Shown one piece after another: positions 7,322-62,048 of a stretch of 64,000 nt of DNA. Under the pieces are notes generated by a model. That model saw only the letters and a list, made by a program, of their open reading frames with translations. It was not told the DNA's origin and made no database searches. The DNA comes from Rhizobium alarense (GTDB lineage Bacteria > Pseudomonadota > Alphaproteobacteria > Rhizobiales > Rhizobiaceae). Numbering within the stretch: the stretch's first letter is position 1; each line of letters opens with the position of its first letter. The translations under genes were made by a program, and so were the position numbers. The stretch lies in assembly GCF_021555155.1 (NCBI RefSeq), contig NZ_JAKGBU010000009.1, positions 1 to 64,000 of the forward strand, written 5' to 3'.

Positions 7322-7326
7322 ACGTC

Positions 7327-7466: not shown

Positions 7467-7557
7467 ATGTCTGTACGCCGCCTTACCGGGTGGTTGCGGA
7501 CCTGTTCGCCCAAGGGATTGATGATGTCCGATAGCGGCACCCTTGAAAGGCAATGGA

Positions 7558-44679: not shown

Positions 44680-45671
44680 TTTCCGATGAGCCTCCGGAAG
44701 AACTGGCCGGGGCCGAAGGTCCGCGGCACGAGACCGCCGGGGCGGATGATGATCAGCGCGATCATCAGGAGGCCCAGGAAAAGGATACGCCATTCCGCGA
44801 ACTCGCGCAGCACCTCCGGCAGCAGGATGAGGATCGCTGCGCCCGCGACGATTCCGAGGATGTTTCCGATGCCGCCGATGACGATCATCAGCACGATCAG
44901 CACGGATTCCTGCAGGGTGAAGCTCTCCGGGCTGACGAAACGCTGCGAGGCGGCGAAGATCACGCCCGCGATGGAACCGATCGTCGCCGAGGTTGCGAAA
45001 GCGGCGAGCTTGGCGTTCGTGGTGTTGATGCCGATGCCGCGCGCCGCGTCCTGGTCCTCGCGGATTGCCGCCCAGGCCTTGCCGAGGATCGAGTGCTCCA
45101 TGCGCCAGACGACGACAGCGGTCAGGATCACGGTCACGACCAGCAGCCAGTAGATTTCGCCCGGCCGGGCGATCTCGAGACCGGCGATCGATGCCTTGTC
45201 GAGCCGCGCGATGCCTTGCGGTCCGCCGGTCAGCCAGTCGAGATTGTTGATGACGATGCGGATGATCTCGCCGAAGCCGAGGGTCACGATGGCGAGGTAG
45301 TCGCCGCGCAACTTGAGCACCGGCATGCCGAGCAGGATGCCTGTCAGCATGCCGAGCAAGGCGGCTATGACGACGATGAGAAGAAACGGAAGGTGCAGGT
45401 CGAGCTGAGGGCTCGCCAGCAGACCGTAGGTATAGGCGCCGACCGCATAAAACGCGACGAAGCCGAGGTCGAGCAGGCCGGCATAGCCGATGACGATGTT
45501 AAGGCCGATGCCGAGCAGGATGTAGATCAGCAGGCCGTTGACGACGCGGACATAATAATTCGGCAAGAAGGGGGTTGTGAGGAGGAGCGCGATGGCCAGC
45601 GCGAAGAAAAGGAAAGGCAGCAGCCGGGCGACGCGCGGCGCTGCCTTGACGGTTGTCTCGACGGCGGACAT
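44676..45671 (-). CDS. Branched-chain-type ABC permease LivM-like
   Basis: The 331-residue permease has about nine helices. It shows the LivM text LNIVIGYAGLLDLGFVAFYAVGAY near residue 60, LAIVTLGFGEIIRIVINN at about 150, and AIREDQDAARGIGINTTNAKL in the coupling region. It shares one base with the livH stop. It forms the channel with LivH. Confidence 0.95.
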   Translation of the reverse strand: MSAVETTVKAAPRVARLLPFLFFALAIALLLTTPFLPNYYVRVVNGLLIYILLGIGLNIVIGYAGLLDLGFVAFYAVGAYTYGLLASPQLDLHLPFLLIVVIAALLGMLTGILLGMPVLKLRGDYLAIVTLGFGEIIRIVINNLDWLTGGPQGIARLDKASIAGLEIARPGEIYWLLVVTVILTAVVVWRMEHSILGKAWAAIREDQDAARGIGINTTNAKLAAFATSATIGSIAGVIFAASQRFVSPESFTLQESVLIVLMIVIGGIGNILGIVAGAAILILLPEVLREFAEWRILFLGLLMIALIIIRPGGLVPRTFGPGQFFRRLIGK

Positions 45672-46621
45672 CAGAACTCCCTCTTGTAGACCATGCTCTC
45701 CTCGGAGACCGGCTCGCCAAGGAGACCGGCCGGCTTCACGAGCAGAACGAGGATGAGGATCGCGAAGGCGAGCACGTCGCGATATTCGGTGCCCAGCAGG
45801 CCGCCGGAGAGCGTGGGGAGCAATGCGGTGCCGGCCACCTCCACGAAGGCGAGGATATAGGCGCCGAGCATGGCGCCGGGGATCGAGCCTATGCCGCCGA
45901 GGATTGCCGCGGTGAACGCCTTGAGGCCGATGACGGCGCCCATGGTGGGGGTCATGATGCCGTAGTAGCTCGCATAGAGGATGCCGCCGGCGGCGCCGAG
46001 AAGCGGCCCGGAAAAGAACACCATGGAGATCGCGAGATTGACGTTAATGCCGAGCAGTTGCGCCGTGGACCGGCTTTCCGACACGGCACGCACGATGATG
46101 CCGATCTTGCTGCGGTTGACGAGCGTATAGAGCGCGAACATCAGCAGGAAGGCCGCGACCAGGATGCCGATCTGCACCGACGTCACCGTGCCACCGAGGA
46201 TAGTGTAGCGCTCTGCGGGGAAGAAATTCGGGAAGGCAACGGGCTGCGGCCCGGCGAGGATTTGTATGCCGGTCACGAGCGAGAGCGACACGCCGAGCGA
46301 CGAGAGCATCGGCGCAAGCCTGGTCGAGGAGCGCAGCGGCTTGTAGGCGAGCCGTTCGATGCCGACGCCGATGAAGCCGATGCCGATGACGGCGGCGAAG
46401 AAGGCCAGCGTGAGTGCAAAGGCGCCGGCCGCTCCGATGTCGCCGACGAGCACCGTCAGCACGAGGAAGGCGGCGTAGGCGCCGAGCATGAACATTTCGC
46501 CGTGGGCGAAGTTGATCATGCGCAGCACGCCGTAGACCATGGTATAGCCGAGCGCGATCAGAGCGTAGATCGAGCCGATGGTCAGCGCATTGACGGTCTG
46601 TTGAATGAAGGTTCCCAGCAT
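45671..46621 (-). CDS. Branched-chain-type ABC permease LivH-like
   Basis: The 316-residue permease starts MLGTFIQQTVNALTIGSIYA and has the LivH landmarks LGYTMVYGVLRMINFAHGEM and AVIGLKAFTAAILGGIGSIPG. About eight helices are predicted. It lies 147 bp after the binding-protein gene, with a hairpin between them. The transporter family carries amino acids, but related systems carry amides, aromatics and other small solutes. Confidence 0.95.
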   Translation of the reverse strand: MLGTFIQQTVNALTIGSIYALIALGYTMVYGVLRMINFAHGEMFMLGAYAAFLVLTVLVGDIGAAGAFALTLAFFAAVIGIGFIGVGIERLAYKPLRSSTRLAPMLSSLGVSLSLVTGIQILAGPQPVAFPNFFPAERYTILGGTVTSVQIGILVAAFLLMFALYTLVNRSKIGIIVRAVSESRSTAQLLGINVNLAISMVFFSGPLLGAAGGILYASYYGIMTPTMGAVIGLKAFTAAILGGIGSIPGAMLGAYILAFVEVAGTALLPTLSGGLLGTEYRDVLAFAILILVLLVKPAGLLGEPVSEESMVYKREF

Positions 46622-46729
46622 GGGCGTCCCCTCCGTTGGGCCCGGCGCGAAGGGCGCGCGGGATGACGAGGGATAGGAATGCGCGGCCGGTCAGGAAAGG
46701 CAAGCCATGCCGACAGCGCGACGGCGTCG

Positions 46730-46752
46730 CCGGCCGGCATCATGCCGACCGG
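46730..46752 (-). repeat. Intercistronic hairpin between the binding protein and livH
   Basis: CCGGCCGGCAT, one base, and ATGCCGACCGG form an 11-bp stem with one mismatch, in the 147-bp gap after the binding-protein stop. No T-run follows. It may protect the upstream mRNA from 3' decay and so raise binding-protein levels. Confidence 0.5.
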
Positions 46753-46768
46753 ACGACGGGTCGGGGCC

Positions 46769-47878
46769 TTACTTCTGTCCGATCAGGACGAAGGCCTTGC
46801 CTTCCACCTTGTAGAGGTAGGACGGAGCCACCTTGAGTTCGCCGGTCTCGTCGAATTCCAGTTCGCCGACGGCGGTCTTCACCTTCACGGCGTGCAGGGC
46901 GTCGTTCATCTCCTCGCGGCTGAAGCCCGCGGCGGATTTGATCACCGCCTCGAGGATCTGGCCCTGGACATAGCCGTAGATCGAATAGGGACCGGCGTCC
47001 TCGCCATACTTCTCCTTGTAGAGCCTGGCGAACTCGGCGATCTCCGGCGAGGCGTCCATCGGCGGCACCTGGATGGCGACCAGCGAACCCTGGACATTGG
47101 CTTCGCCTGCCTGGTCGATGTATTCCGGCGTGTAGCCGCCGTCCGGGACGAGGAGGGTGGCCGTGACGCCCTGCTCGTGCATCTGTTTCGCGAAGAGCGA
47201 GAGCTGCGGCATGACGGCGCCGAGATAGATGACGTCCGGCGCCTTCGCCTTGATCTGCGCGAGAACAGCCGTGAAATCCACGTCGGTCGGTGCGACGGAG
47301 AGGGTATCGAGGAGCTGGCCGCCGCCCTCGACGAAGTTCTTGCCGAAGATTTCCGAAATGCCCTGGCCGAACACCTGCTTGTCGTTGACCACAATCGCGG
47401 TCTTCGCGCCAAGCTCCTTGAGCGCGTATTCGGCCGGCAGGAGCGCGCCGGCGAGATCGTTGGCGACAGGGCGGACCATGAACTTGTAGCCCTGCTGCGT
47501 CAGGGTCGGGTTCGAGCCGAAGGTCATCGTCGGCAGCGAGCAGTCCTCGTAGATCGGCAGGGTTGACTGGGCAACACCGGAATTGAAGTTCACGAGGCCG
47601 ATAACGACGTCGTCATCGTCGCAAAACTTCTGGGCGACGAGCGTGCCTTCACGCGGGTCGGCCTTGTCGTCCTGTTGATTGTACTTGACCGTCGTGCCGT
47701 TGACGCCGCCGGCGGCGTTGAGCTTGTCCCAGTAGAGCATGAAGCCCTTGTGCCAGGTCGTGCCAAAATAGGCCTGAGGACCGGAGAGCGGACCGGAGAG
47801 GCCGATGGTGATCTCGTCGGCAAAAGACGGGGTGGCGATCAGCGACATGCCGAGGCAGAGCGAGGTGACGAACTTCAT
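46769..47878 (-). CDS. Liv-type periplasmic binding protein
   Basis: The 369-residue protein starts with a Sec signal peptide (MKFVTSLCLGMSLIATPSFA, cleavage before DEI). It continues as a Peripla_BP_6 protein: ITIGLSGPLSGPQAYFGTTW, GLVNFNSGVAQSTLPIYEDC, VRPVANDLAGALLPAEYA and VIYLGAVMPQLSLFAKQM. The ATG at 47878 has AAGGGGA upstream. It is the first gene of the LivHMGF-oxidase operon and has the GntR-type palindrome about 100 bp before its start. Ligand unknown. Confidence 0.94.
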   Translation of the reverse strand: MKFVTSLCLGMSLIATPSFADEITIGLSGPLSGPQAYFGTTWHKGFMLYWDKLNAAGGVNGTTVKYNQQDDKADPREGTLVAQKFCDDDDVVIGLVNFNSGVAQSTLPIYEDCSLPTMTFGSNPTLTQQGYKFMVRPVANDLAGALLPAEYALKELGAKTAIVVNDKQVFGQGISEIFGKNFVEGGGQLLDTLSVAPTDVDFTAVLAQIKAKAPDVIYLGAVMPQLSLFAKQMHEQGVTATLLVPDGGYTPEYIDQAGEANVQGSLVAIQVPPMDASPEIAEFARLYKEKYGEDAGPYSIYGYVQGQILEAVIKSAAGFSREEMNDALHAVKVKTAVGELEFDETGELKVAPSYLYKVEGKAFVLIGQK

Positions 47879-47977
47879 TTGGTTCCCCTTTGTTCGAATC
47901 CTGTTCGATATGGCAGGCCGTTCCGGTCTTCTTGCCGATGAAGACATGGAAGCAGACTATCGGGACGCCGTCAAGAA

Positions 47978-48026: not shown

Positions 48027-48791
48027 TCAGAACCTGCGGCGCCGTGGCTTTGCGTCGTCGTCGCCAGGAGCGAAAACTTTCAGCAAGGCGTCCTTCAGCG
48101 CCTGCTGCGTTGCGGAGACCGTCATTTCGATATGCTGGCGCAGCAGTTCCACGCCCTGTTCCGTATCCCGCCTCATGGCCGCGTCGACGATGGCGGAATG
48201 CGAGGCCACCTGCCGCTTGTCGTGTGTGCGATGCTCGATCTGGATGCGGCGGATGAAACGGATGCGGGCATTGATCGCCGCCAACTGAGCGACGATTTCC
48301 GGATTGCCGGACAGCTCGGCGATCAGCAGATGGAAGCCCTCGTCCTCGGTCAGGATGATGTCCGGCGGATGATCCTGATAGCCCTCGACAATCGCCTCCC
48401 AATAGGCGCGGAGCCGGTCGAGCTGGTCATCCTCCGCGCGTTCGCACATGAGCCTGAAGGCGGCGCATTCGATGATGGAGCGCAATTCGTAAAGGTCGAG
48501 AAGACCCTCGGTCGAGAGGCTGCGCACGAAGAAGCCGCGGTTCGGCGTCAGCGACACGAAACCTTCGGAGGCGAGCCGGTTCAGCGCCTCGCGGATCGGC
48601 GTGCGGGAAATGCCGAGGCTGCGCGACAGCTGCATCTCGTTGATGCGCTCCTCGGGCTTCAGCTTGAACTCGACGAGGAGCTTGCGGATCGTGTTGTAGG
48701 CCCGTTCGCTGCTGTCGGCGGACCGGCGGCCTTCGGGTTCGCTTCCCGGCAGGCCGTCGGCAATGTCGGTCAAGTCGGATCGTTCGGTCAT
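48027..48791 (-). CDS. GntR-family regulator (FCD subfamily)
   Basis: The 254-residue regulator has an N-terminal winged helix (ERAYNTIRKLLVEFKLKPEE, then LSRSLGISRTPIREALNRLA, residues about 62-81) and a C-terminal FCD domain. That domain shows ELRSIIECAAFRLMCERA, DEGFHLLIAELSGNPEIVAQL and SHSAIVDAAMRRD, with aspartate/histidine metal-site residues. The ATG at 48791 has GGAG upstream. A site close to the shared palindrome precedes its own start, which argues that it is the regulator of the whole cluster and represses itself. Confidence 0.94.
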   Translation of the reverse strand: MTERSDLTDIADGLPGSEPEGRRSADSSERAYNTIRKLLVEFKLKPEERINEMQLSRSLGISRTPIREALNRLASEGFVSLTPNRGFFVRSLSTEGLLDLYELRSIIECAAFRLMCERAEDDQLDRLRAYWEAIVEGYQDHPPDIILTEDEGFHLLIAELSGNPEIVAQLAAINARIRFIRRIQIEHRTHDKRQVASHSAIVDAAMRRDTEQGVELLRQHIEMTVSATQQALKDALLKVFAPGDDDAKPRRRRF

Positions 48792-48925: not shown

Positions 48926-49678
48926 ATGAGTGTCGGAATTCTCGGCGTCGGGCATCTGGCCCAAAGCTTGATCGAAAGCCTGCTGCGATCGGGTCTTCCC
49001 GCCGCCGACATCGTCCTGTCGCCGCGCGGCAAGGCGCCCTCGCTCGCAGACCTTCACCGCCTGCGGCTTGCCGCCGACAACAGGGCGCTGGTGGAAGACA
49101 CGGACCTTGTTCTTCTCGCCGTACGCCCCGAGGATGCGCCGGCCGCGGTCGCCGGACTTCCCTGGCGGGTCGGGCAGGTGGTGGTGTCCGTCTGCGCCGG
49201 CGTTCCTCTTGAAGCCCTTGCCGTTGCTCCGGCCGAGGTGGTTCGCGCCATGCCGCTGACCGCGGCCGCGATTGGTGCCAGCCCGACCGTTTATTTTCCC
49301 GACAACGGCGTGGCCCGCGATCTGATCGGCCGCTTCGGAACGGCCATCCCCCTTGCGAGCGAGGCCGATTTCGAAATCGCGACGGTGAACGCGGCGGTCT
49401 ATGGCTGGGCGCAGGATCTCATCCGGCGCACGGCAGGCTGGTCGGTCGAGCGAGGCGCGGACGCCGCCACCATGCGCCGGCTCGTCGCGCTCACCTTCGT
49501 CGCCGCCGGTCGGATGATGGCGGAGAAGCCGGAGCCCATGGAGGAAATCCTTGCGGACCTCGTCACGCCCGGCGGCATTACCGAGCTCGGCCTCGGCATT
49601 CTCGAAGCCCGCGACCAACCGGGCGCCTGGCAGGCGGCCTGCACGGCCGTCCACCGCCGGCTCGCCGACAGACGGTGA
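48926..49678 (+). CDS. ProC-like NAD(P)-binding reductase
   Basis: The 250-residue protein begins MSVGILGVGHLAQSLIESLL and follows pyrroline-5-carboxylate reductase layout: VLLAVRPEDAPAAV, VVSVCAGVPLEALA and VRAMPLTAAAIGAS-PTVYF. The C-terminal half has AGRMMAEKPEPMEEI and TPGGITELGLGILE, the ProC dimerisation part. It is divergent from gntR. Catabolic placement suggests reduction of a cyclic imine, or a related reaction, rather than proline biosynthesis. This is inference. Confidence 0.88.
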   Translation: MSVGILGVGHLAQSLIESLLRSGLPAADIVLSPRGKAPSLADLHRLRLAADNRALVEDTDLVLLAVRPEDAPAAVAGLPWRVGQVVVSVCAGVPLEALAVAPAEVVRAMPLTAAAIGASPTVYFPDNGVARDLIGRFGTAIPLASEADFEIATVNAAVYGWAQDLIRRTAGWSVERGADAATMRRLVALTFVAAGRMMAEKPEPMEEILADLVTPGGITELGLGILEARDQPGAWQAACTAVHRRLADRR

Positions 49679-49683
49679 GGTTG

Positions 49684-50433
49684 TCACGGCACCGGCGCTG
49701 CGGGATATGTTTGTCCGCCGGCGGCCTGCTCGGTCGGCGACAATGTCAGTTCGGCAATGTCGACGTGCTCGGGAAGGTTGAGCGCCGAGACGAGGACGGA
49801 AGCGATATCTGCCGGCCGCAGCGGCCGCTGATGGGTGTACATGCGCTCGCTCAGAGCGTCGCGGTCGCCGTCGAAGGCCTTCAGGTAGAATTCCGTCTCG
49901 ACGCGCCCGGGAGCGAGTTCCGTCAACCGTACGCCTGTGCCGGCGAGGTCGTAACGCAGGACGCGGCCTGCCTGGGAAAGGCCGGCCTTGGCGGCGGCGT
50001 AGGTGGTTGTGGCGGGAAAGACGGCGGCCGCCGCCGTGCTGGTGAGATTGAAGATATGGCCGCGCCTCTGTGCGATCATGCCCGGCAGAAGGAGACGGAT
50101 GAGCTGAAGCGGGGCCGTCAGGTTGAGAGCCACCACATCCGTCGTCTCTTCCGCCGTCTGCCCGTACAAGGGCTTGACGGAGACGAGGCCGCCGGCATTG
50201 TTGACGAGCACGTCGATTTCGACAGTCGCCAGCGTCTCGGCGATCGTCGCGTGATCGCGCACGTCGGCGACAAGCGGCCGCAGCCGCGGGCCGAGCCGGT
50301 CGGCGAGCGCCCGAAGCGCCGTCGCGTCGCGTGCAAGCGCGTGAACGATCAGCCCCTCCTTAACCAGGGCTTCGGCGATGGCTGCCCCGATGCCCTTCGA
50401 GGCGCCGGTGACGAGGGCGGTCCGGTAGTGCAT
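49684..50433 (-). CDS. SDR-family dehydrogenase
   Basis: The 249-residue SDR has TALVTGASKGIGAAIAEALV, NNAGG, the serine region NLTSTAAA and YAAAKAGLS with the catalytic tyrosine and lysine. It is the last gene of the operon that begins with the E1 alpha gene, 25 bp after the hydroxyacyl-CoA-dehydrogenase-like gene, and its 3' end converges with the ProC-like gene. Substrate unknown. Confidence 0.91.
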   Translation of the reverse strand: MHYRTALVTGASKGIGAAIAEALVKEGLIVHALARDATALRALADRLGPRLRPLVADVRDHATIAETLATVEIDVLVNNAGGLVSVKPLYGQTAEETTDVVALNLTAPLQLIRLLLPGMIAQRRGHIFNLTSTAAAAVFPATTTYAAAKAGLSQAGRVLRYDLAGTGVRLTELAPGRVETEFYLKAFDGDRDALSERMYTHQRPLRPADIASVLVSALNLPEHVDIAELTLSPTEQAAGGQTYPAAPVP

Positions 50434-50458: not shown

Positions 50459-51382
50459 TCAATGCGCGCCGTGGCGGGCGACAGTCCGCAGAATGCCGAC
50501 CAGGCCGGCCTCCCGGGATTCGCGCAAATCCTCCTGGGTGCGGCCACGCACCGCTTCGGCTGTCGACGTGGTGACGGCACGGATGGTCGGCTCGTCGAGC
50601 TTCGCATCGAGAAGCGTGTCCCAGATCGCCTGGTAGGTCGGTCCGTATTTGCGCAGGAAATCCTCCATGCCCGCCGCATTGAGCTGGTTGGAGATGAAGG
50701 AACCCTGCAGCGTCCATTTCGGTCCCGGGCCGTACATGAAGGCGCGATCGACGTCCTCGACCGATGCGACGCCGTCGCGCACCAGCGCGATCGCCTCGCG
50801 CCACATGGCCCCCATCAGACGCAGCGCCAGGTGCCCGGTGATCTCGCGTTTCAGCGTTACCGGCTTCTTGCCGACCGCCTCGTAGACGGAGCGCGCCGTC
50901 GCCATCGCCTTTTCGTCCGTCGCCCTGCCGCCGACGATCTCGACGAGCGGCATCAGGTGGGCCGGATTGAACGGGTGGCCGAGCACGATCCGCCCGGGGA
51001 TGCGGCAGTCGGTCTGCATGTCGGAAACGAGGAGCGCCGAGGAGGAAGAGGCGATGACGACCTCGTCATCCACATGGGTCTCGATCTCGGCGAGCAGAAG
51101 CCGTTTTATGGCGATGTCCTCGGGGCCGCTTTCCTGCACGAAGCCGACGCCGGAAAGCGCTTCCGCCATGGACGGGAAGAGCCGGATCGATCCGGGCGTT
51201 TCGGAAGGCCCCGCCAATGCATCGAGATCGGCCATCAGGCCGGGCAGGGCATCCGTGAAGGCCGCTTCCCGTCCTCCGCCGGGATCATAGGCGCGGACAT
51301 CGTGGCCGGCATGGGCGAAAGCGGCCGCCCAGCGCTGCCCGATGACCCCAAATCCGATGATGCCGATCGACAGCTTGTCCAT
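50459..51382 (-). CDS. 3-hydroxyacyl-CoA dehydrogenase-like NAD enzyme
   Basis: The 307-residue protein has the Rossmann motif GIIGFGVIGQRWAAAF (G10, G12, G15), the HPFNPAHLMPLVEIVGG motif of 3-hydroxyacyl-CoA dehydrogenases, and a short C-terminal domain. The length fits the small-molecule branch (L-carnitine dehydrogenase, lambda-crystallin/L-gulonate dehydrogenase). It would oxidise a 3-hydroxy acid with NAD. The ATG at 51382 has AAGGAG upstream. Carnitine itself is possible but not supported by other genes here. Confidence 0.9.
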   Translation of the reverse strand: MDKLSIGIIGFGVIGQRWAAAFAHAGHDVRAYDPGGGREAAFTDALPGLMADLDALAGPSETPGSIRLFPSMAEALSGVGFVQESGPEDIAIKRLLLAEIETHVDDEVVIASSSSALLVSDMQTDCRIPGRIVLGHPFNPAHLMPLVEIVGGRATDEKAMATARSVYEAVGKKPVTLKREITGHLALRLMGAMWREAIALVRDGVASVEDVDRAFMYGPGPKWTLQGSFISNQLNAAGMEDFLRKYGPTYQAIWDTLLDAKLDEPTIRAVTTSTAEAVRGRTQEDLRESREAGLVGILRTVARHGAH

Positions 51383-51393
51383 GATGCGCTCCT

Positions 51394-52257
51394 TCAGTCC
51401 AGGGCCTTGCGAAAGGCTTCGTTGATGCCGTTCCACGGAATGAGAAGGTCGAGCCAGGCGCCGATGCGTCCCGCGGCAAGGATGGCCTCGTCGATCAGGG
51501 CTCCGAAGGGCAGCCCCGGCTCTTCCATTGCGATCGACAGGCGGAATAGGAGGTCCGGCGTCTGCGCCATGTGGCAGAAGTCGCGCAACCGCGTGGCCGT
51601 CTTGTCGAGTGCGATCGCCGCGGTCTGGCGCAGGACCGTTTCGTCACGCCGGCTGCGCGCCGCGCGCAGCCACCAGAGCAGTTCGTGAAGGACGCGGGCT
51701 TCGGATTCCGCCATGAAGACAGGACCGGCCGGATGCATGATGGCCCGGGAAGTCGTCACGCGGACAATGTCGTCGGGACATGCCGACCAGAGCGCCCGCA
51801 GCGCGGCGACAAGCGTCTCGGGCAGCGGCGACGCCGGGCTTGGCGCCGGTTCGACCGCTCCGGTTGCGGCCAGCGTTCCGGTCAGCATGCGTCTGCCCGC
51901 CTCGCGCCTGAGCGTGGCCGCGAGTGCGGCGATGCCGTCGACCGGTGCGTCCAGATGGCCGAGCACGGTGATCTCGGCGTTCTCGGCCTGCAGCGGCGCG
52001 AAGGTGATTTCGAGGAACTGCCGCACCGGCCAGTAAATGAATGCGCCGGCTTCGGCCGCGAGCACATGGGTCGCGCCCTCGACGTCCTCGACGAAGGGTG
52101 CGTGCCAGTAGATGTGGCTGCCGGCGATTTTGGGCGTGTGCAGCTGCAGCGGCATCGGCAGCGCGGCGACGAGTGCGCGGCATGTGCGCTCCGCGCCGCC
52201 GGCGAGCCGGATCGGCCAACTCTGTCCTTCGGCCGAGAAGAGAAGGTGCATGCTCAT
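51394..52257 (-). CDS. DUF3830/cyclophilin-like protein with a C-terminal extension
   Basis: The 287-residue protein begins MSMHLLFSAEGQSWPIRLAG. Its first 150 residues resemble the cyclophilin-like DUF3830 fold (HTPKIAGSHIYWHAPF, FIYWPVRQFLEITFAPLQAE). The last 110 residues are helical and unlike that family. The ATG overlaps the NIPSNAP stop (ATGA). Family members often sit in catabolic operons, but their reaction is not known. I do not recognise the C-terminal half. Confidence 0.75.
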   Translation of the reverse strand: MSMHLLFSAEGQSWPIRLAGGAERTCRALVAALPMPLQLHTPKIAGSHIYWHAPFVEDVEGATHVLAAEAGAFIYWPVRQFLEITFAPLQAENAEITVLGHLDAPVDGIAALAATLRREAGRRMLTGTLAATGAVEPAPSPASPLPETLVAALRALWSACPDDIVRVTTSRAIMHPAGPVFMAESEARVLHELLWWLRAARSRRDETVLRQTAAIALDKTATRLRDFCHMAQTPDLLFRLSIAMEEPGLPFGALIDEAILAAGRIGAWLDLLIPWNGINEAFRKALD

Positions 52258-52577
52258 TTCCCGGGATTGAAGAAGGAGACCGGCTTCAGGATCTGGTTGC
52301 GCATGTCGGCGAGATAGTCGGTCTCGATGACCTTGCGGCGATAGGCCTGCCACTCGGGATCGGCCTCCATCCGGTCGCGGCGCGCTTCGCGGTCGGCGAG
52401 ACTGTCATATTTCCACAGGTGCACGGTGCGCGAAAGGTCGCCGATATGCGTCTGGAAAAAACCGAAGGGTTCGCCCAGATAATGCCGCTGCATCGGCAGT
52501 CCAACGTCCTCGTAGAGCTTCAGGAAATGCGGCAGCATGTTGGGGCGGGCGGTATAGGTTCGGTGATCGAAGATCAT
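52254..52577 (-). CDS. NIPSNAP-family small protein
   Basis: The 107-residue protein begins MIFDHRTYTARPNMLPHFLK and has GEPFGFFQTHIGDLSRTVHL plus YDSLADREARRDRM, typical of the NIPSNAP ferredoxin-like fold. AAGGA precedes the ATG at 52577. Such proteins accompany catabolic enzymes, probably as small isomerases or binding proteins; no catalytic residue can be named. It lies 74 bp after the E2-like gene and is coupled to the DUF3830-like gene. Confidence 0.88.
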   Translation of the reverse strand: MIFDHRTYTARPNMLPHFLKLYEDVGLPMQRHYLGEPFGFFQTHIGDLSRTVHLWKYDSLADREARRDRMEADPEWQAYRRKVIETDYLADMRNQILKPVSFFNPGK

Positions 52578-52651: not shown

Positions 52652-53944
52652 TCAACCGGCGCTTCTGACGGTTTCCGAGATCAGGCGGGCGGCAAGCGCT
52701 GGAACCTCCATCTGCGGAACATGGCCGACGCCGTCGAGAAGGTGCACCGCCGCGAAGCCCGGCGCGCGTGCCGCATGGCCGGCAGGCACAACGCGATCCG
52801 AACGGCCCCAGACGATCCGGGTCGGAACTGCAAGGCCGGCAAGGGACTGCGCGAGGCTGAACGCCTGCGTTCCATGGGGAAAAAGCGTGTCGGCCATGGC
52901 CCGAAGGGTCGCGGCATTGCCGGTGCGCTGCATCTGCCTCAGCGCCGCGCGGGCATAGCCGTCCGGCAGGACGGAGCGGTCCGCCACCATGAAGCCGAGC
53001 CACTGGTCGAGCGCCTCGGGTGACGAAGCCTCGGTGAGGCCGGCAACGAAGCCGCCGTGGATCTCGGGCCCCAGGCCACCGGGCGCAAAGAGCGTTACCG
53101 AACGAACCGCTACGCGGCCGAGCGCGGCGAGCGCCAGCCCGGCCGCACCGCCGAGCGAATGGCCGACGACATGGGCGCGCGAAATGCCGAGCGCCTCCAG
53201 CCGGTCGGAAAGTGCAAGCGCGATCGCCTCGATGCCGAAAGCGGGGGCGGCCGCCTGCGAACCATGGCCGGGCAGGTCGAGCGCTACCGCCTCCACATCC
53301 GCCGGCAACAGCGGGATCACCTGCCGCCAGGCGGTGCGGTCGGCCGCAAAACCGTGCAGCAGAACGGTCGGGTCGCTCACCCGCACAGGGGGCTCTGCTT
53401 TCCGGACCGCCGCCGCGCGGATTTCACCGGCCGCTTTTTCGACGAGGCTGCCTGCCTGCCTGGCTTCGTCGGCGAGGGCCGCCACCACGTCGCGCTGTTT
53501 GATGCGGCCACGGGGGCCGGTGCCGGCGATCCCGCCGAGATCGAGACCGCCAGCGCGGGCAAGCCGGCGGGCGAGCGGGCTTGCGACGACGCGGGCCTTC
53601 GCGGCGGCGGCAACGCCATCATCGGGAGCGGCCGTCGAAAGAGGAGCACCGGCCGCCACCGCGCCGGATGTCGTCGCCGCTGTTCCGATGCCGGTGATCT
53701 CGCTGTCCGACAGCGTGCCCAGCACGGCACCCACCGGAGCCTCCTGTCCCTCTTCGAAAAAGATCTCCGTCAACCAGCCGTCGCGCTCGGCTTCAATTTC
53801 CGTTGCCGCTTTCGCCGTTTCGACGGTGACAAGCAGGTCGCCGGTCTTGAGGTGATCGCCAGGCTTTGCGGCCCAGGCGACGACCAGCACGGATTCCATA
53901 TATTCGCCGCCGGCGCTTTCGATCGTGATCGGATGGGTTGCCAC
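52652..53944 (-). CDS. E2-like protein: lipoyl domain, E3-binding domain and alpha/beta hydrolase (AcoC-like)
   Basis: The 430-residue protein has an N-terminal lipoyl domain with K45 in VETAKAATEIE, a peripheral-subunit-binding domain (about 117-157, ASPLARRLARAGGLDL), and an alpha/beta hydrolase in place of the usual acyltransferase core. That core has GHSLGG with S263, LLHGFAADRTAW and a late GVGHVPQ. This layout is that of acetoin dehydrogenase E2 (AcoC). I chose a GTG start at 53944 because AAGGGGAAG precedes it; the GTG at 53959 overlaps the E1 beta stop without a ribosome-binding site. It acts with the E1 subunits. Confidence 0.9.
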   Translation of the reverse strand: MATHPITIESAGGEYMESVLVVAWAAKPGDHLKTGDLLVTVETAKAATEIEAERDGWLTEIFFEEGQEAPVGAVLGTLSDSEITGIGTAATTSGAVAAGAPLSTAAPDDGVAAAAKARVVASPLARRLARAGGLDLGGIAGTGPRGRIKQRDVVAALADEARQAGSLVEKAAGEIRAAAVRKAEPPVRVSDPTVLLHGFAADRTAWRQVIPLLPADVEAVALDLPGHGSQAAAPAFGIEAIALALSDRLEALGISRAHVVGHSLGGAAGLALAALGRVAVRSVTLFAPGGLGPEIHGGFVAGLTEASSPEALDQWLGFMVADRSVLPDGYARAALRQMQRTGNAATLRAMADTLFPHGTQAFSLAQSLAGLAVPTRIVWGRSDRVVPAGHAARAPGFAAVHLLDGVGHVPQMEVPALAARLISETVRSAG

Positions 53945-53955
53945 TGCCTTCCCCT

Positions 53956-54930
53956 TCACTTCAGTGTCGCAAGGGCGGCGGAGCGGATCGTCTCGGCGTT
54001 CGGCAGCATTGCCGTCTCCAGTGGCTCCGAATAGGGAATCGGCATGTCGGGCAGGGCGACACGGGCGACCGGCGCGTCCAGTTCGTCGAAGGCATGGTCC
54101 ATGATGGTGGCAGAGAGCTCCGCGGCATAACCGCAGAAGCGCCAGCCTTCGTTGACGACCACCGCATGATGCGTCTTGGCGATCGAGGCGACGATGGCGC
54201 CGACGTCGAGCGGCCGGAGCGAGCGCAGATCGATGACCTCGGCGAACACGCCGTCGCCGGCAAGAAGGTCGGCGGCCTTTGCCGCCTCCACCACCATCTT
54301 GGACGTCGCGAAGATCGAGACATCCGTGCCCTCGCGCACGATGCGGGCCTTGCCGAGCGGCTCGACGACATCACCCTCCGGCACCTCGCCACGGGTGTTG
54401 TAGAGCAGCTTGTGCTCCAGGAAGACCACCGGCTGGTCGTCGCGGATCGCCGCCTTCAGCATGCCCTTGGCGTCGGCAGGCGTGGAGGGCGCCACGACCT
54501 TGATGCCCGGGATATGCGCGAGCATGGAATCGAGCGCCTTGGAGTGCTGGGCGCCCGCTCCCGCGCCGCCGCCGCCCTGGGTGCGCAGCACGAAGGGCAT
54601 CTTCACCTGCCCGTTCCAGATGTAGTTGTAGATGGATGCCTGGTTGACGAGGGCGTCAAGGCAGAGTGGCACGAAGTCGGCATACATGATCTCGAGCACC
54701 GGCCGCGTCCCGGTCATGGCCGCCGTCACCGCCATCGCGGTCAATGCCTGTTCCGAGATCGGCGTGTCCCGCACGCGCATGTCGCCGAACTCCTCCCTCA
54801 GGCCCCTGGTGACCTTAAACACGCCGCCATAGCGACCGATGTCCTCGCCGAACAGGAAGACGGACGGGTCTGCGAGCATTTCCTCGCGGAGCGCGGCATT
54901 CAGCGCCTCGGCATATCGCATCAGGGCCAT
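53956..54930 (-). CDS. E1 beta subunit of an acetoin/2-oxoacid dehydrogenase-like complex
   Basis: The 324-residue protein starts MALMRYAEALNAALREEML and has FGEDIGRYGGVFKVTRGL, RDTPISEQALTAMAVTAA with the ThDP-activating glutamate, and PFVLRTQGGGGAGAGAQHSK. It is 1 bp downstream of the E1 alpha stop. It forms the alpha2beta2 E1 enzyme that cleaves a 2-oxo acid or diketone-type substrate and passes the acyl group to lipoyl-E2. Confidence 0.94.
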   Translation of the reverse strand: MALMRYAEALNAALREEMLADPSVFLFGEDIGRYGGVFKVTRGLREEFGDMRVRDTPISEQALTAMAVTAAMTGTRPVLEIMYADFVPLCLDALVNQASIYNYIWNGQVKMPFVLRTQGGGGAGAGAQHSKALDSMLAHIPGIKVVAPSTPADAKGMLKAAIRDDQPVVFLEHKLLYNTRGEVPEGDVVEPLGKARIVREGTDVSIFATSKMVVEAAKAADLLAGDGVFAEVIDLRSLRPLDVGAIVASIAKTHHAVVVNEGWRFCGYAAELSATIMDHAFDELDAPVARVALPDMPIPYSEPLETAMLPNAETIRSAALATLK

Positions 54931-54931
54931 G

Positions 54932-55903
54932 TCAGTGCGCCTCGCTGTAGGGATTGCAGGCTTCGTCGATTGCGAAAATGGGCATGGGGTCGTCAAGAGC
55001 GAGTGCGAAGGCCGCGTCGACCTCCGCCTTCGCCGCAGCCTCGATTTCCATGAGCCTGGCCTCTTCGATATCCGCAAGAAGGGTTCTGCGGGAGCGGGCG
55101 AGAGGGTCGCGCGCCTTCCAGGCGGCGATATCCTCGGGCTTCTGGTATCCGCCCATGTCGGAGGTGGAGAAGCCCTCGACCCGATAGGTCTTGCATTCGA
55201 CCATGCCGGGGCCCTCGCCGCGGCGTGCCCGTTCGGCCATCGCGGCGACGGCGCGGTAGACGGCGACCGCATCGTTGCCGTCGACGATTTCGGAAGGCAT
55301 CGCATAGCCCGCGGCGCGCATGGCGAGATCTTCGACCGGCGACTGGACGTCGGAGGGAACCGTCAGGCCGAACTGGTTGTGCTCCAGCACGAACACCATC
55401 GGCAATTTCCACAGGCCCGCCATGTTCATCGCCTCGTGGCAGATACCGGTCTGGGCGGCGCCGTCGCCGAAGACGCACATGGCGACGTTCGGCTGCCCGA
55501 GCACCTGCATCGAGAGCGCCATTCCGGCCGCGGCCGGGATACCGGCACCGACGATGGCATTGCCGCCGATGACGCCTTTCCCGGCGTCGGCGATGAGCAT
55601 GTGGCCAGCCCGGCCGGCGCAGGCGCCCGTTGCGCGCCCGAAGATCTCGGCGATCACCGGGCGCATCGCCATGCCTTTGCCGATGTAGACCGCATGGCCG
55701 CGATGGGTCGTCGCCACCTTGTCGCCGGCCTCGAGCACCGCGGTGGCCGCGACGCCGACCGCCTCCTGGCCGTCGCAGCGATGGATCGGTCCGCGTGTGC
55801 GGCCTTCCTTGTGCAGCGTTCCAAGCCCCTCCTCCAGATGCCGGACCAGCAGCATCTTGCGGTAGATTTCGAGATGATCCTCGACCGAAGGTGTGTTTTT
55901 CAC
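54932..55903 (-). CDS. E1 alpha subunit of an acetoin/2-oxoacid dehydrogenase-like complex
   Basis: The 323-residue protein has the ThDP motif FGDGAAQTGICHEAMNMAGL followed by LEHNQFGLTVP, and GAGIPAAAGMALS before it, as in AcoA/PdhA. I prefer the GTG at 55903 because GGAGG lies 5 bp upstream. An ATG at 55921 sits almost at the predicted transcription start and would be leaderless. It is the first gene of the seven-gene operon ending at 49684, and the shared palindrome lies in its promoter spacer. Confidence 0.93.
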   Translation of the reverse strand: MKNTPSVEDHLEIYRKMLLVRHLEEGLGTLHKEGRTRGPIHRCDGQEAVGVAATAVLEAGDKVATTHRGHAVYIGKGMAMRPVIAEIFGRATGACAGRAGHMLIADAGKGVIGGNAIVGAGIPAAAGMALSMQVLGQPNVAMCVFGDGAAQTGICHEAMNMAGLWKLPMVFVLEHNQFGLTVPSDVQSPVEDLAMRAAGYAMPSEIVDGNDAVAVYRAVAAMAERARRGEGPGMVECKTYRVEGFSTSDMGGYQKPEDIAAWKARDPLARSRRTLLADIEEARLMEIEAAAKAEVDAAFALALDDPMPIFAIDEACNPYSEAH

Positions 55904-55929
55904 CGATGCCTCCAAATGCATGAAAGAAT

Positions 55930-56437: not shown

Positions 56438-58180
56438 TCAGGCGGCCGGCAGGTCGATGGTCAACGCCGCCAGCATCTGGTCGAGATCGGCGCAGGGACG
56501 GCAGCCGAGCGTGGCAATCTCCCGCGTCACGTCGACCGGCAGGCCGGAATTGGAATCCCTCGGCACCTCGTTCAGCCGTCCGCCGATCAGGACCGGCAGA
56601 GCGAGCCCCTGCTTCCTCATGGCGGCCTTAACAGCCCTCGCGTAGGAGAGCGCGACGCCGTTATAGGTGCTGATGGCAATCGCGTCGGCGCCGGATGCGA
56701 TGGCGTGCGCCACCAGCGCTTCGGGATCGACCGCGACGCCGGCATCCGCGATCGCCACGCCGAGTCCCTCGAGGGCCTGCTCGACCAGATACTTGCCGTG
56801 TTCGTGCACGTCGGTGGTGCCGATGCAGACCGTCAGACGTCGGGGAACGACGAGCGGCGGCTGTGCCGCGACCCAGTGTTCCGCCTTCTCGTTGAGCTCG
56901 CGAGCCCACTCGGCGTGGATGAGCGGCCGCCGGCCGCGACCGCTTTCGGTGCCGGGTCCGAACAGCGCCTCCATGCGCTTCGGCCCCATGCGCCGGATAG
57001 CGAGCATCAGTGCGGCGGGGTCGGCGCTCGGCACGCCGCGTTCTTCGAGGCCGGAGAGCACCGCCTCCGCAAAGCGCCGACCGCCATTGACCAGCACGCC
57101 GGCCATGGCCTCGACCTTCGTCCAGTCGAGGATCGGATCGTAGCAGGGTGCATGCAGCGTCAGGCGATGTGCGAAGGTCTGTGCGTCGATGATCTCGTCG
57201 ACATCCGGAATGCGCTGGTTTTCCGTCACGGGCACCGGATTGATGGCATGGCCGGCCGGCCAGCGGCCAAGCGCCAGGATATCGGCCGTCAGATAGCTCG
57301 CGAGGCTCGCATAGTTGCCGGCCGGCGCCGACTGGTAGGCAACCGTGTTGCCGAAGATCATCGTGCCCGGCGTGTCGTTGACGCGCACCAGAGCGGCGTG
57401 GAAGGCCATGCGCGACAGGGGATCACTGAAATGGTGGCCGTAACAATGGGCGAGGCGTGCGCCGATCAGATCCTCGACGATATGCTTCTCGACGATCACC
57501 ATGCCGAGGGCGCAGGCCATGTCGACGAAGAGGCCTGCAAACCCGTCGTCAAGATTCGAATGCACGAGAATCTCGGCCTCCTGCGCGGCGATGAGGCCGA
57601 GCGCCGTCACCGTCGCCTCCGTTGTCGCCACGTCGTCGTCCCAATAGGGCAGGCGGAAGGTGAAATACTGGCCGAGATTGCCGACCGCCGTCGCACCTGC
57701 CGCGATTGCGGCGCGGGTGTTCTCGATCGCGCCCGGCAGGCCGAGCATGAAGTCGCCGAAATGCGCCGCTGCCGGTGCCGCATGGGTGATGCGGGCAAAA
57801 TCCTCCGGCCCCGTCAGCACGATGCCGGTACCACGGGAGGCGTTGGCGCGCATCGCATCCGGATAGCCCATCGACCAGTCGAGCGTGATGCCGAAACGGT
57901 CCACCGTGACACCGCGCTCTGCGCAGGTGCCGTGTACGGCACGAATAGCCTCTATCGTGCGGTTGACGTCGCGAAACCCGATATGGGCGTGCTGCATGAT
58001 CCGCTTCTCGGCCGTTGCCCTGCGTTTCCAGTCGGCTTCCGAAGCGACGGAATTCTCCGTCAGGAAGGGGCAGGAGCCGAGCCGCCAGCTTTGGGCCATC
58101 GCGCGGCCGGCGGCGACAAGCTCGGCACCGGGCCTGAGACTCGGATCGACGAGGGCGGGCACTTGGGCGTCAGCAGGCAT
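56438..58180 (-). CDS. Single-chain B12-dependent mutase-like protein
   Basis: The 580-residue protein has a barrel-like N-terminal part (about 60-400). Its segments, such as GATAVGNLGQYFTFRLPYWDD and VIVEKHIVEDLIGARLAHCYG, recall the catalytic subunit of glutamate/methylaspartate-type mutases. A C-terminal cobalamin-binding domain (about 445-575) has the base-off motif DVHEHG (D457, H459, G462), an AISTYNG loop and GGRLNE (533-538). In glutamate mutase these two parts are separate chains. Its ATG overlaps the hydrolase gene by 11 bp. Carbon-skeleton or amino-group rearrangement is inferred; the substrate is unknown. Confidence 0.8.
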   Translation of the reverse strand: MPADAQVPALVDPSLRPGAELVAAGRAMAQSWRLGSCPFLTENSVASEADWKRRATAEKRIMQHAHIGFRDVNRTIEAIRAVHGTCAERGVTVDRFGITLDWSMGYPDAMRANASRGTGIVLTGPEDFARITHAAPAAAHFGDFMLGLPGAIENTRAAIAAGATAVGNLGQYFTFRLPYWDDDVATTEATVTALGLIAAQEAEILVHSNLDDGFAGLFVDMACALGMVIVEKHIVEDLIGARLAHCYGHHFSDPLSRMAFHAALVRVNDTPGTMIFGNTVAYQSAPAGNYASLASYLTADILALGRWPAGHAINPVPVTENQRIPDVDEIIDAQTFAHRLTLHAPCYDPILDWTKVEAMAGVLVNGGRRFAEAVLSGLEERGVPSADPAALMLAIRRMGPKRMEALFGPGTESGRGRRPLIHAEWARELNEKAEHWVAAQPPLVVPRRLTVCIGTTDVHEHGKYLVEQALEGLGVAIADAGVAVDPEALVAHAIASGADAIAISTYNGVALSYARAVKAAMRKQGLALPVLIGGRLNEVPRDSNSGLPVDVTREIATLGCRPCADLDQMLAALTIDLPAA

Positions 58181-58973
58181 CGGACACTCTGGTTATGAAA
58201 TGGCGAATGAGGCCGGCGAAGGTCTCGGCACGGGTCATGGGATGAAAATGGGTACCGGATACGACGACCAGCTCCGCGCCGACAATAGTTTCCGCGATCT
58301 GCCGGGTGAGCGATGGCGGGATGAGAATGTCGCCGTCTGCCGCAATCGCCAGCACCGGCGCCCGGATGATGGGCAGGTCGTCGAGGCGGTCGTGGTCGAG
58401 CAGCATGCGGACCCGTGCGGCAGCGATGGAAGCGGGCGAAAGGAGCTCGCGTGCGGTCGTGACCGCCGCCTCCAGCCGGACGGCATTGGCGGCGAGATAA
58501 TCAGGCTCATGGCCGAAGACATGGGTGAGGCGCTGGTAGCTCTCGAAGAGACCTGCCTCCAGCAGTTCGGCGCGGGCAGTGAAGAGCGTGCGGAAGCGCG
58601 TGTCGGCCCGTGCCCAGGAGCTGCTGATCGTGTAGCTGAGGCCGCAGGCAGCGTGGTCGAGCGCCAGCACCTGGGCGACCGCACCGCCCGTCGAATGGCC
58701 GACGACATGGGCCGGGCCGCCCGTCGCCTTGAGAAGGGCCGCGGCGTCGGCAGCGATCGTCTCGATCGACTGCGGCCCTTCCGGCCGGTCACTGCGGCCG
58801 GCGCCGCGGTGGTCCAAGACAATGAGCCGGTGGTCGCGTTCAAGTGCCGCCACCACGCCCGCGTAGAATCGTCCGTCGCCCCCGAGCCCCGGCACCAGCA
58901 GCACGCGGGGCCCGTTGGTTCCGAAGGTGTCGTAATGGATGCGGCAGTCGTCCGCGGCGACGAGAGCAGGCAT
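58170..58973 (-). CDS. Alpha/beta hydrolase
   Basis: The 267-residue protein has VLLVPGLGGDGRFYAGVVAA (oxyanion region), LDHRGAGRSDRPEG, the nucleophile elbow GHSTGGAVAQ, and a late aspartate (IAADGDILI) and histidine (SGTHFHPM). It resembles 3-oxoadipate enol-lactonase-type hydrolases. It shares one base with the stop of the aspartate-dehydrogenase-like gene and overlaps the B12 protein gene by 11 bp, so the three are tightly coupled. Substrate unknown. Confidence 0.92.
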   Translation of the reverse strand: MPALVAADDCRIHYDTFGTNGPRVLLVPGLGGDGRFYAGVVAALERDHRLIVLDHRGAGRSDRPEGPQSIETIAADAAALLKATGGPAHVVGHSTGGAVAQVLALDHAACGLSYTISSSWARADTRFRTLFTARAELLEAGLFESYQRLTHVFGHEPDYLAANAVRLEAAVTTARELLSPASIAAARVRMLLDHDRLDDLPIIRAPVLAIAADGDILIPPSLTRQIAETIVGAELVVVSGTHFHPMTRAETFAGLIRHFITRVSDAC

Positions 58974-59761
58974 CAGGCTTTCCCCACGCCTTGCAGCAGC
59001 TTGCGCAGCGTCGCGGCGATGCTGAGCCCGGTGATCGCCGAGGTTTTCGGGTTTCCCGGCAGCGGTGCGTTGAAAAAGCGCAGGTTCGCCGTACCCGCCG
59101 CACTCGTCACGACGATCTCGTGCACGTTGCCGGTTGCCGCCGGGTCCGCCACGACGCGGACCTCGACCGGAGCCGGATGTGCGGCGAGCGCGATGGAGAG
59201 CGCGACATTGAGGTTCTTCGGGTACCGCCTCACCGCCTCGTCCGCTGTACCTTCGAACAGCACGCTTTCGCCCGTTGCTCCGTCAAGGTCGTGCGCCGCC
59301 AGCATTTCGGCGAAGGCGGCCGGCGGTTTGCGCGACGTGTAGCGGACGCGCGCGTCGGGCAGAGCTGCGACAGCCGCCAGATAGTCGAGGCCGCCGACGG
59401 CGCCGGACGGAAGAACGATATCCGTTTTCGACGCCCTCCGCGCCGCGACGATCCTTGCGCGGAGCGACGGGTCGGCAAGCGCGCCGACGGAGGCGACGAT
59501 GACGGGGATACCCGCAGCGAGAAGGTCCGGAACATAGGCGCTGGCGGCCTCCTGCCCGGCGGCTTCCACCACCGCGTCCGGTGCCGCAGCGATCAGCTCG
59601 GGCAGGTCGGCGACCGCGCGCACGCGCGGCGGAAGGGCGCAGGCCGTAACGTCTCGGACAAGCACGACCCAACCGATCGTCGCCGGCAGGGCGTCGACGA
59701 TCTGACGCGCGAGCGCGCCGAAGCCGATCAGTCCAACTGTCGCGGGGCCGGCGGGCTGCAC
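58973..59761 (-). CDS. L-aspartate dehydrogenase-like protein
   Basis: The 262-residue protein has a Rossmann start VGLIGFGALARQIVDAL, then VEAAGQEAASAYVPDLL, PSGAVGGLDYLAAV, YPKNLNVALSIALAA and GNPKTSAITGLSIAATL, all landmarks of aspartate dehydrogenase (NadX family). The start is GTG, 3 bp after the cupin stop. The placement in a catabolic operon with no nadA or nadB suggests it oxidises or reduces an amino acid of this pathway rather than making NAD. Confidence 0.87.
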   Translation of the reverse strand: MQPAGPATVGLIGFGALARQIVDALPATIGWVVLVRDVTACALPPRVRAVADLPELIAAAPDAVVEAAGQEAASAYVPDLLAAGIPVIVASVGALADPSLRARIVAARRASKTDIVLPSGAVGGLDYLAAVAALPDARVRYTSRKPPAAFAEMLAAHDLDGATGESVLFEGTADEAVRRYPKNLNVALSIALAAHPAPVEVRVVADPAATGNVHEIVVTSAAGTANLRFFNAPLPGNPKTSAITGLSIAATLRKLLQGVGKA

Positions 59762-59764
59762 GGT

Positions 59765-60298
59765 TCAGCTGCCTTTCGTCGGGTCGAACTTGTCCTTGAG
59801 GTCGGCGCCGAACACGGTCCGGCGCTCGATCTCCAGCACGTTCTCCGGGCGGGGAAAGTTGGACGGCACGCGTTCCCCCGGCGTGCGCGGCCGGCCGATC
59901 AGGCGGAAGAAGTCCTCAAGTCCGTTCGGCACGATCAGCCACATCCAGCGCAATCTAACCTCGCCGTCATTGATGAACATGTGGCGGGTGTTCCTCGGCA
60001 GAAAGATCACGCTGTCCGGGCCGATCGGATATTCCTTGCCATCCACCACGGCACGGCCATGGCCCTCGATGACGTAGACGGCTTCCTCGTTTCGGTCGTG
60101 CGTATGCTCCCGCACATAACCGCCGGGCGCGACCGACTGCGTGCCGAGTGCAAAGGGATGCTCCATCCCGACAATGTGCGGCGCGAGCGCGACGTCGATA
60201 TGGCCGTTCGCCGGCACCGGCTGCCAGTAACTCGCGCGCGCGTCGGGGCCGGAAATGTGAACACCGGATGCGGCCGGCGGCAGCGTGGTCTTCTCCAT
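59765..60298 (-). CDS. Cupin-domain protein
   Basis: The 177-residue protein is a single cupin with both metal motifs: PGGYVREHTHDRNEEAVYVI and LPRNTRHMFIND. A C-terminal tail (RPENVLEIERRTVFG) follows. AGGAAGG precedes the ATG at 60298. It is the first gene of the operon cupin, AspDH-like, hydrolase, B12 protein, and its promoter overlaps the shared palindrome. It could be a dioxygenase, isomerase or ligand-binding protein. Confidence 0.9.
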   Translation of the reverse strand: MEKTTLPPAASGVHISGPDARASYWQPVPANGHIDVALAPHIVGMEHPFALGTQSVAPGGYVREHTHDRNEEAVYVIEGHGRAVVDGKEYPIGPDSVIFLPRNTRHMFINDGEVRLRWMWLIVPNGLEDFFRLIGRPRTPGERVPSNFPRPENVLEIERRTVFGADLKDKFDPTKGS

Positions 60299-60387: not shown

Positions 60388-60426
60388 TAGACAGATTAAA
60401 TTGCATGCTCGTATACTCCGCATGCA
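60388..60426 (+). promoter_or_regulatory. Promoter and second inverted repeat before the FAD dehydrogenase gene
   Basis: TAGACA (60388-60393) and TATACT (60412-60417), 18 bp apart, form a plausible plus-strand promoter. The exact inverted repeat TGCATGC-N11-GCATGCA (60402-60426) surrounds the -10. The repeat differs from the GTGTCGACAC palindrome and may bind another regulator. Confidence 0.5.
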
Positions 60427-60443
60427 GCGAATGGGGAATGGTG

Positions 60444-62048
60444 ATGGATTCGTGCGATGTTCTGGTGATCGGCTCCGGTTCCGCGGCCTGCGCCTCGGCG
60501 CTTCGGGCGGCGCGCGGCGGACTCAAGGTTCTCGTCATCGAAAAGAGCGCGTGGCTGGGCGGGACTTCCGCCATGTCCGGCTCCGGCGTCTGGATCCCGG
60601 CCAACCACGTGGCGGCGGAAGCCGGCGTTGCCGACAGTCGGCAGGAGGCGATCGCCTATCTCCGGGCGGTGTCGCCGGACGGCTGGCTGGAGAAGGAGGA
60701 CGCCCGCTGGTCCGCCTTCGTGGAACGCGCCCCCGACATGCTGAAGTTCCTCGCGGAGAACACGCCGCTCGACTTCCGTCTCGTGAAGGAGCCGGATCCC
60801 TTTTCCGAGGCGCCGGGCGGCAAGCTCGTCGGCCGCATGGTCTCGCCCATGCCGCTTAGCCGCCGCATCCTCGGGCCTTTCGCGTGTCGTCTCCGGCGCT
60901 CCACGCTGCCGCACAGCTTCACCTATCAGGAAGTTGTGGACCATGACCTCTATCACCATCCGATCCGCGCCGGTCTAAAGCTCTGGCCGAAGCTCCTCCG
61001 CCGCTGGCTCACCAATTCCGGCGGACAGGGGACGGCCCTCATGACGGGCCTCATCCGCGGCTGTCTCGATGCCGGGGTGACCTTCTGGCCGGAAACGCGC
61101 GCCGTGAAGCTGGTTCAGGATGCCGCCGAACGGGTGATCGGCGCCGAACTGGAGCGCGGGCAACGGAAGCAGACGGTCATGGCAGGGCGCGGCGTCGTCA
61201 TCGCGTCCGGAGGCTTCGAATGGGATCCGGAGATGCGCGCGCGCCATTTCCCGGGGCCGCTCGACCGGATCGGCAGCCCGCGCAGCAACGAGGGCGACGG
61301 CCAGAAGCTTGCCGCCTCTGCCGGCGCACAACTCGACCTCATGGACCAGGCGAATGTCTATCCCTGTCTGCCGACACGCTATCAGGGCCGCCCGCACGGG
61401 CTGCCGATGACCTTCCAGGCCGAACCGCATTCCATCGTCGTCGACCGTCACGGCAGGCGCTTCGTCAGCGAGAATGATTTCAATATCGGCGAAGCGCTGG
61501 ACAGGCGCGGCGCCGACGGCACGCCGGTACATCTGCCGTGTTACCTCGTCGGCGACCATCGTTTCCTCGGCACGTCGTTGCCTTTCCGCTGGTATGCGTC
61601 CTATGAACCGCAATGGGTCAAGAAGGCACAATCCATTCCGGATCTGGCCGAAAAGCTCGGCCTTCCGGCAGCGGTTCTGCAGGAGACGATAGACCGATGG
61701 AACACCTTCTGCGCCAACGGCTGTGATGAGGACTTCCGACGCGGCGAAAGCGGCTGGGAGGACTACAAGGCCCACGGTCCCGAAAACCGCCTGAAGCCCA
61801 TCGACAAGCCGCCCTATATCGGCATGAGCCTCAATCGTTCGATCCTCGGCACGAAGGGGGGCGCACGGACCAACGAACAGGGGCAGGTGCTGCGGCCGGA
61901 CGGATCGGTGATAGCCGGCCTTTATGCCGCGGGCCTTGCCATGGCAAATCCCTTCGGCACGCGCGCCGTCGGCGCCGGCACCACGATCGGCCCCAACATG
62001 ACCTGGGGTTACATCGCATCGGAAACGATCCTGAGGCAAAACCGGTGA
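60444..62048 (+). CDS. FAD-binding dehydrogenase, fumarate reductase/ketosteroid dehydrogenase-like
   Basis: The 534-residue flavoprotein has CDVLVIGSGSAACASALRAA and EKSAWLGGTSAMSGSGVWIP for FAD binding. It also has ASGGFEWDPEMRARHFPGPL in the middle and a C-terminal GLYAAGLAMANPFGTRAVGAGTTIGP, the layout of 3-ketosteroid-1-dehydrogenase and FrdA-type enzymes. GGGGA precedes the ATG at 60444; the ATG at 60438 is an alternative. It likely introduces or reduces a C=C bond next to a carbonyl. A steroid substrate is not implied. Confidence 0.91.
   Translation: MDSCDVLVIGSGSAACASALRAARGGLKVLVIEKSAWLGGTSAMSGSGVWIPANHVAAEAGVADSRQEAIAYLRAVSPDGWLEKEDARWSAFVERAPDMLKFLAENTPLDFRLVKEPDPFSEAPGGKLVGRMVSPMPLSRRILGPFACRLRRSTLPHSFTYQEVVDHDLYHHPIRAGLKLWPKLLRRWLTNSGGQGTALMTGLIRGCLDAGVTFWPETRAVKLVQDAAERVIGAELERGQRKQTVMAGRGVVIASGGFEWDPEMRARHFPGPLDRIGSPRSNEGDGQKLAASAGAQLDLMDQANVYPCLPTRYQGRPHGLPMTFQAEPHSIVVDRHGRRFVSENDFNIGEALDRRGADGTPVHLPCYLVGDHRFLGTSLPFRWYASYEPQWVKKAQSIPDLAEKLGLPAAVLQETIDRWNTFCANGCDEDFRRGESGWEDYKAHGPENRLKPIDKPPYIGMSLNRSILGTKGGARTNEQGQVLRPDGSVIAGLYAAGLAMANPFGTRAVGAGTTIGPNMTWGYIASETILRQNR

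Follow-up and report, generated by a model that had tools for sequence, protein, structure and literature searches.

The putative mutase gene and its operon

The window (the whole stretch of 64,000 nucleotides that was analysed) carries a gene for a B12-dependent mutase-like protein within a catabolic operon of about 20 kb, at about 41.9-62.0 kb, which also includes a branched-chain-type (LIV) transporter, a regulator and a gene resembling pyrroline-5-carboxylate reductase (P5CR-like; Table 1). The gene closes a tightly packed run in the order cupin, aspartate-dehydrogenase-like, hydrolase and mutase, with the hydrolase overlapping the mutase start. The initial annotation had named these three neighbours correctly, but had missed the extent of the operon and its wide conservation. 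It had also reported that neither MutL nor methylaspartate ammonia-lyase is encoded at the locus, and this was borne out. The operon has no reactivase gene, and in the source genome we found no MutE gene and no MutL gene above the cut-off. Four genes with a B12-binding domain were found in that genome. Their open frames measure 296, 228, 1275 and 584 aa, the 584-aa frame being that of the mutase, and none corresponds in length to a methylmalonyl-CoA mutase. No cobalamin riboswitch was found in the window; it contains an FMN riboswitch at 7324-7470 (+), scoring 108.8 bits. Between the mutase and E1 alpha genes, at 56017-56407 (+), lies a decayed SDR gene remnant, which lacks about residues 53-162 and is broken in frame, while many relatives carry intact copies at the same place.

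Table 1. Features of the mutase gene and of the operon around it
Feature	Position	Strand	Remark
FAD amine/imino-acid oxidase	41894..43183	-	Shinella relative matches L-pipecolate oxidase model, below cut-off
LIV ABC transporter, five genes	43176..47947	-	
GntR/FCD regulator	48027..48791	-	
P5CR-like protein	48926..49678	+	commonest partner of the mutase
SDR oxidoreductase	49684..50433	-	
3-Hydroxyacyl-CoA/carnitine-dehydrogenase-like protein	50459..51436	-	
Conserved protein	51394..52257	-	weak cyclophilin-like match
NIPSNAP-domain protein	52254..52577	-	by its 95% identical Neorhizobium relative
E2 component, lipoyl and hydrolase domains	52652..53959	-	acetoin-dehydrogenase type
TPP-dependent dehydrogenase E1 beta	53956..54930	-	start inferred from relatives
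TPP-dependent dehydrogenase E1 alpha	54932..55921	-	start inferred from relatives
Single-chain B12-dependent mutase-like protein	56438..58180	-	580 aa; open frame runs from 58180 down to 56438
B12-binding Rossmann domain, residues 446-580	56441..56845	-	C-terminal, MutS-like; Pfam and structure comparison
DVHEHG, DxHxxG cobalt-ligand motif	56795..56812	-	sequence, conservation
Predicted (beta/alpha)8 barrel and helical extension, about residues 14-440	56861..58141	-	N-terminal, glutamate-mutase-epsilon-like fold; predicted structure
Glu320, paired with the adenosine-binding Glu330 of glutamate mutase	57221..57223	-	profile alignment; role of the Glu from literature
Alpha/beta hydrolase	58170..58973	-	overlaps mutase start by 11 bases
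Aspartate-dehydrogenase-like NAD enzyme	58973..59761	-	
Cupin protein	59765..60298	-	start inferred from relatives
FAD-dependent ketosteroid-dehydrogenase-like protein	60405..62048	+	

Predicted fold and active site

The protein contains the motifs DVHEHG (residues 457-462), STYNG (504-508) and GGRLNE (533-538). Its sole Pfam domain is B12-binding, matched above cut-off at residues 456-536 (E 3.4e-10), and the same model matched all nine members of our first family alignment. The first 440 residues gave no convincing sequence match in Pfam, NCBIfam or PDB, and neither the Met_asp_mut_E (PF06368) nor the MM_CoA_mutase barrel family matched any of the nine members up to E 10. We therefore turned to structure, using AlphaFold2 models built with 35 relatives, whose mean pLDDT was 91 for the whole chain and, in a separate prediction, 90.5 for residues 1-445 alone. 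With the barrel alone, the epsilon subunit of glutamate mutase ranked first in two structure-comparison programs, one of them Foldseek (6h9e_B: Z 28.9 over 373 residues at 3.4 A and 11% identity; Foldseek E 2.5e-9). Lysine 5,6-aminomutase came next (Z 26.8), ahead of ornithine 4,5-aminomutase (22), methylmalonyl-CoA mutase (20) and unrelated generic barrels (15-17). The whole chain gave a similar match to 1cb7_B, again glutamate mutase epsilon (Z 28.8, 364 residues, 3.3 A, 10% identity), while residues 446-580 matched the sigma subunit (1i9c_A, Z 16.0, 23% identity for the B12 domain), tied with other B12 domains. When Foldseek was given the whole chain it ranked methylmalonyl-CoA mutase first, because that enzyme has the same one-chain order of barrel and B12 domain. 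Residues 60-400 are thus modelled as a mutase-type barrel, closest to that of glutamate mutase.

Open frame, Pfam match and predicted structure together confirm the initially proposed fusion of a barrel to a B12 domain, in that order and with all three motifs. The fusion as such is not the novelty that had been supposed. Methylmalonyl-CoA mutases are also single chains with the barrel first, though they match the fold less well and the protein studied here lacks their Pfam barrel match. Fused MutS-MutE proteins occur in other Proteobacteria (L134, 1474-3405; L135, 1477-4080) and likewise join parts of the glutamate-mutase class in one chain, but there the B12 part comes first. The L134 fusion adjoins a PLP-dependent decarboxylase-like gene, and a Roseibium locus (L161) has a coding sequence long enough, judged by length only, for another such fusion.

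Taken by itself, the B12 part also matches MetH and the B12 domain of a MerR-family protein, as would be expected if the protein were a methylcobalamin-dependent methyltransferase or a non-catalytic B12 sensor, and one relative (L137) has a glycine-betaine-monooxygenase-like gene nearby. We regard this reading as most improbable: the barrel and the putative adenosine-binding Glu match mutases, STYNG resembles the S-x-x-x-G of mutases and not the MetH motif, and the barrel is conserved beyond what a sensor would need.

Close and distant relatives alike conserve E320, R323, P325, D457, H459, G533 and G534, and every relative compared has the cobalt-ligand His (H459) and E320; of three distant relatives, two have Ala for the last Gly of DxHxxG. 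A barrel profile of 99 relatives aligned with 13 MutE sequences at E 0.0043, collinearly over 276 columns (HHalign probability 8%), pairing E320 with Glu330 of glutamate mutase and keeping the I-P that follows. An earlier barrel-only profile had given E 0.06 before more MutE sequences were added, and the full-length profile aligned through its B12 part alone, as fused proteins make up two of the MutE rows. The barrel match is weak by itself, yet agrees with the fold and the strand order; the residue pairings should accordingly be read as suggestions from a marginal alignment and strand order. In glutamate mutase Glu330 contacts the adenosyl group, a role also held by Glu370 of methylmalonyl-CoA mutase and Glu338 of ornithine aminomutase (PMC4413051), and E320 may have the same function.

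The substrate-binding residues appear to differ. Glutamate mutase holds its substrate by an arginine claw (PMC10947579). In the marginal profile alignment, claw residue R66 faces His66 or Gln in the family, R149 has no Arg at the matching position and Glu171 faces N168/L169, while the third claw arginine, R100, falls by a gap. Since the claw is largely absent, the enzyme probably acts on a substrate other than glutamate or methylaspartate. A fused glutamate (methylaspartate) mutase would account for the best fold match, and the aspartate-dehydrogenase-like enzyme could take its methylaspartate product; with R66, R149 and Glu171 unmatched and no MutE Pfam match, it is nevertheless highly improbable, the more so as one relative occurs alongside a classical cluster for glutamate mutase (see below). 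The MutS-MutE fusions, in contrast, keep the MutE claw arginines.

An aminomutase that needs both PLP and B12, such as lysine 5,6- or ornithine 4,5-aminomutase, would share the second-best barrel, the B12 domain and an amino- or imino-acid context. These enzymes carry PLP on a lysine, Lys629 in ornithine 4,5-aminomutase and a Rossmann-part Lys in lysine 5,6-aminomutase (PMC3958899). Among close and distant relatives we found no conserved Lys in or by the Rossmann domain that would fit a Schiff base. K463, the only Lys at least 85% conserved in the Rossmann part, adjoins the cobalt-ligand motif and is replaced by Met in two of the three distant relatives. Among the lysines of close relatives K52 alone is fully conserved; it precedes the barrel and is Arg in one distant relative. 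The check for a PLP lysine that the initial annotation had proposed thus turned up no candidate, and an aminomutase of this kind is very unlikely.

Relatives and conserved neighbourhood

One scan of genome contigs gave at least 207 relatives, of which 80 were kept, alphaproteobacterial where identified; this number and the conserved motif residues exclude a chance resemblance. The mutase was present in 17 of 385 sampled whole genomes of Alphaproteobacteria, no match was seen outside that class among 398 sampled whole genomes of the phylum, and none was found in the viral contigs or phages searched. The family is thus conserved and, in the sampled genomes, alphaproteobacterial. Much of the gene order of the window recurs in Rhizobium, Neorhizobium, Mesorhizobium, Ochrobactrum and others, with a shorter form in Shinella. 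One relative's contig (L149, G367:C20) carries within 12 kb two P5CR-like genes and several mutase copies, with an internal TAA at one of the matching places.

We counted partner genes in 100 loci (80 from genome contigs, 19 from whole genomes and the window). A P5CR-like gene occurs in 63 of them and proline-racemase-family genes in 17, and no counted locus has both; the loci are related and hence not independent cases, and they vary in length, so that a missing partner may reflect a short contig. Both partners occur together at a Phyllobacterium plasmid locus (L024) that was left out of the count. With three P5CR-dimer genes in the 5.2 Mb of the source genome, the chance expectation of one within 20 kb is roughly 1%. 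In a tree of 99 members, made by a quick method and with some long branches, the P5CR label lies on deep branches outside a three-member outgroup, and the racemase label needs three changes. At some relatives' loci the GC-based gene calls are rough and include false frames; the genes relied on here are backed by conservation or models. In operons of the Brucella/Ancylobacter type, a curated model identifies one racemase-family gene as a 4-hydroxyproline epimerase (577 bits against a cut-off of 376); next to it are D-amino-acid-dehydrogenase-like, DHDPS-family and trans-3-hydroxyproline-dehydratase-like genes, all three below their cut-offs. The P5CR-like and proline-racemase-family partners and the hydroxyproline epimerase operon point to the catabolism of cyclic imino acids. 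Other partners vary by lineage and include PhyH, betaine-monooxygenase-like and ectoine-hydrolase-like genes, so that context does not fix the substrate.

The claim that the gene lies outside any known glutamate mutase locus is true of the window, where the P5CR-like partner stands in place of MutL and ammonia-lyase, but not of all relatives. In a Mesorhizobium MAG (L054, 9980-21684) a MutS/MutL/MutE/ammonia-lyase-like cluster lies about 6 kb downstream of the mutase; as both are present, the two do not substitute for each other there. In a distant subgroup of about 33% identity (L138, L142, L144), a MutL-like gene adjoins the mutase in L142 and L144, which supports a role for AdoCbl.

The nearest one-chain precedent is 2-methyleneglutarate mutase of Eubacterium barkeri, whose chain of about 610 aa has the barrel first and the B12 domain at its C-terminus; the likeness is to the size and layout described for that carbon-skeleton mutase. 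A genome survey from 2009 detected this enzyme in none of the genomes then sequenced, citing it only from E. barkeri (PMC2667541). Near one relative (L139) we found a gene of the methylisocitrate-lyase family, to which the last step of that enzyme's nicotinate pathway belongs. The pathway is anaerobic. It has no fitting place for P5CR, proline racemase and pipecolate-oxidase-like partners, so an enzyme of this type, or an aerobic relative of it, seems unlikely. A B12 family predicted in the same survey was set aside, as its B12 part is N-terminal and it is found in other phyla. We found no paper in the open-licence literature that places a B12 mutase in a hydroxyproline, proline betaine or rhizobial context.

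Proposed reaction and its significance

The predicted fold, the conserved His and Glu, the replaced claw and the lack of a PLP lysine make it very likely that the protein is an AdoCbl-dependent mutase of the glutamate-mutase structural class that acts on a different substrate. The family is apparently uncharacterised, and its assignment to the AdoCbl type is well supported by computation. Our preferred reading, which we hold to be likely, is a single-chain enzyme of this class with the barrel before the B12 domain, its substrate perhaps a proline-like compound or the ring-opened product of one. Going beyond the computed fold, motifs, conservation and operon, we infer AdoCbl as the cofactor and a radical mechanism. 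Cobalamin would be bound base-off with His459 as the cobalt ligand, and substrate binding in the barrel would set off homolysis of the Co-C bond. Glu320 would hold the adenosyl group thus set free, the radical would abstract a hydrogen, and a group would migrate by a 1,2 shift. The substrate may be a cyclic imino acid imported by the LIV transporter, or its ring-opened product. This class of substrate is a faint indication from gene context: the link to imino-acid catabolism is an association, which suggests the pathway and gives no step to the cupin, the NIPSNAP protein or the TPP complex. As to the undescribed rearrangement raised at the outset, we put forward only tentatively, at somewhat less than even chances, that the enzyme carries out such an AdoCbl radical reaction on a proline-like compound or its ring-opened product, in an uncharacterised aerobic catabolic pathway common to rhizobia and other alphaproteobacteria.

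To our knowledge, the carbon-skeleton and amino mutases that depend on AdoCbl are few, and most of these belong to anaerobes or act on CoA esters. Their list would gain a reaction from a family that is widespread in aerobes and combines a barrel like that of glutamate mutase with a different active site, and the transporter and regulator of the operon offer a route to the growth substrate of the mutase pathway in cultivable strains.
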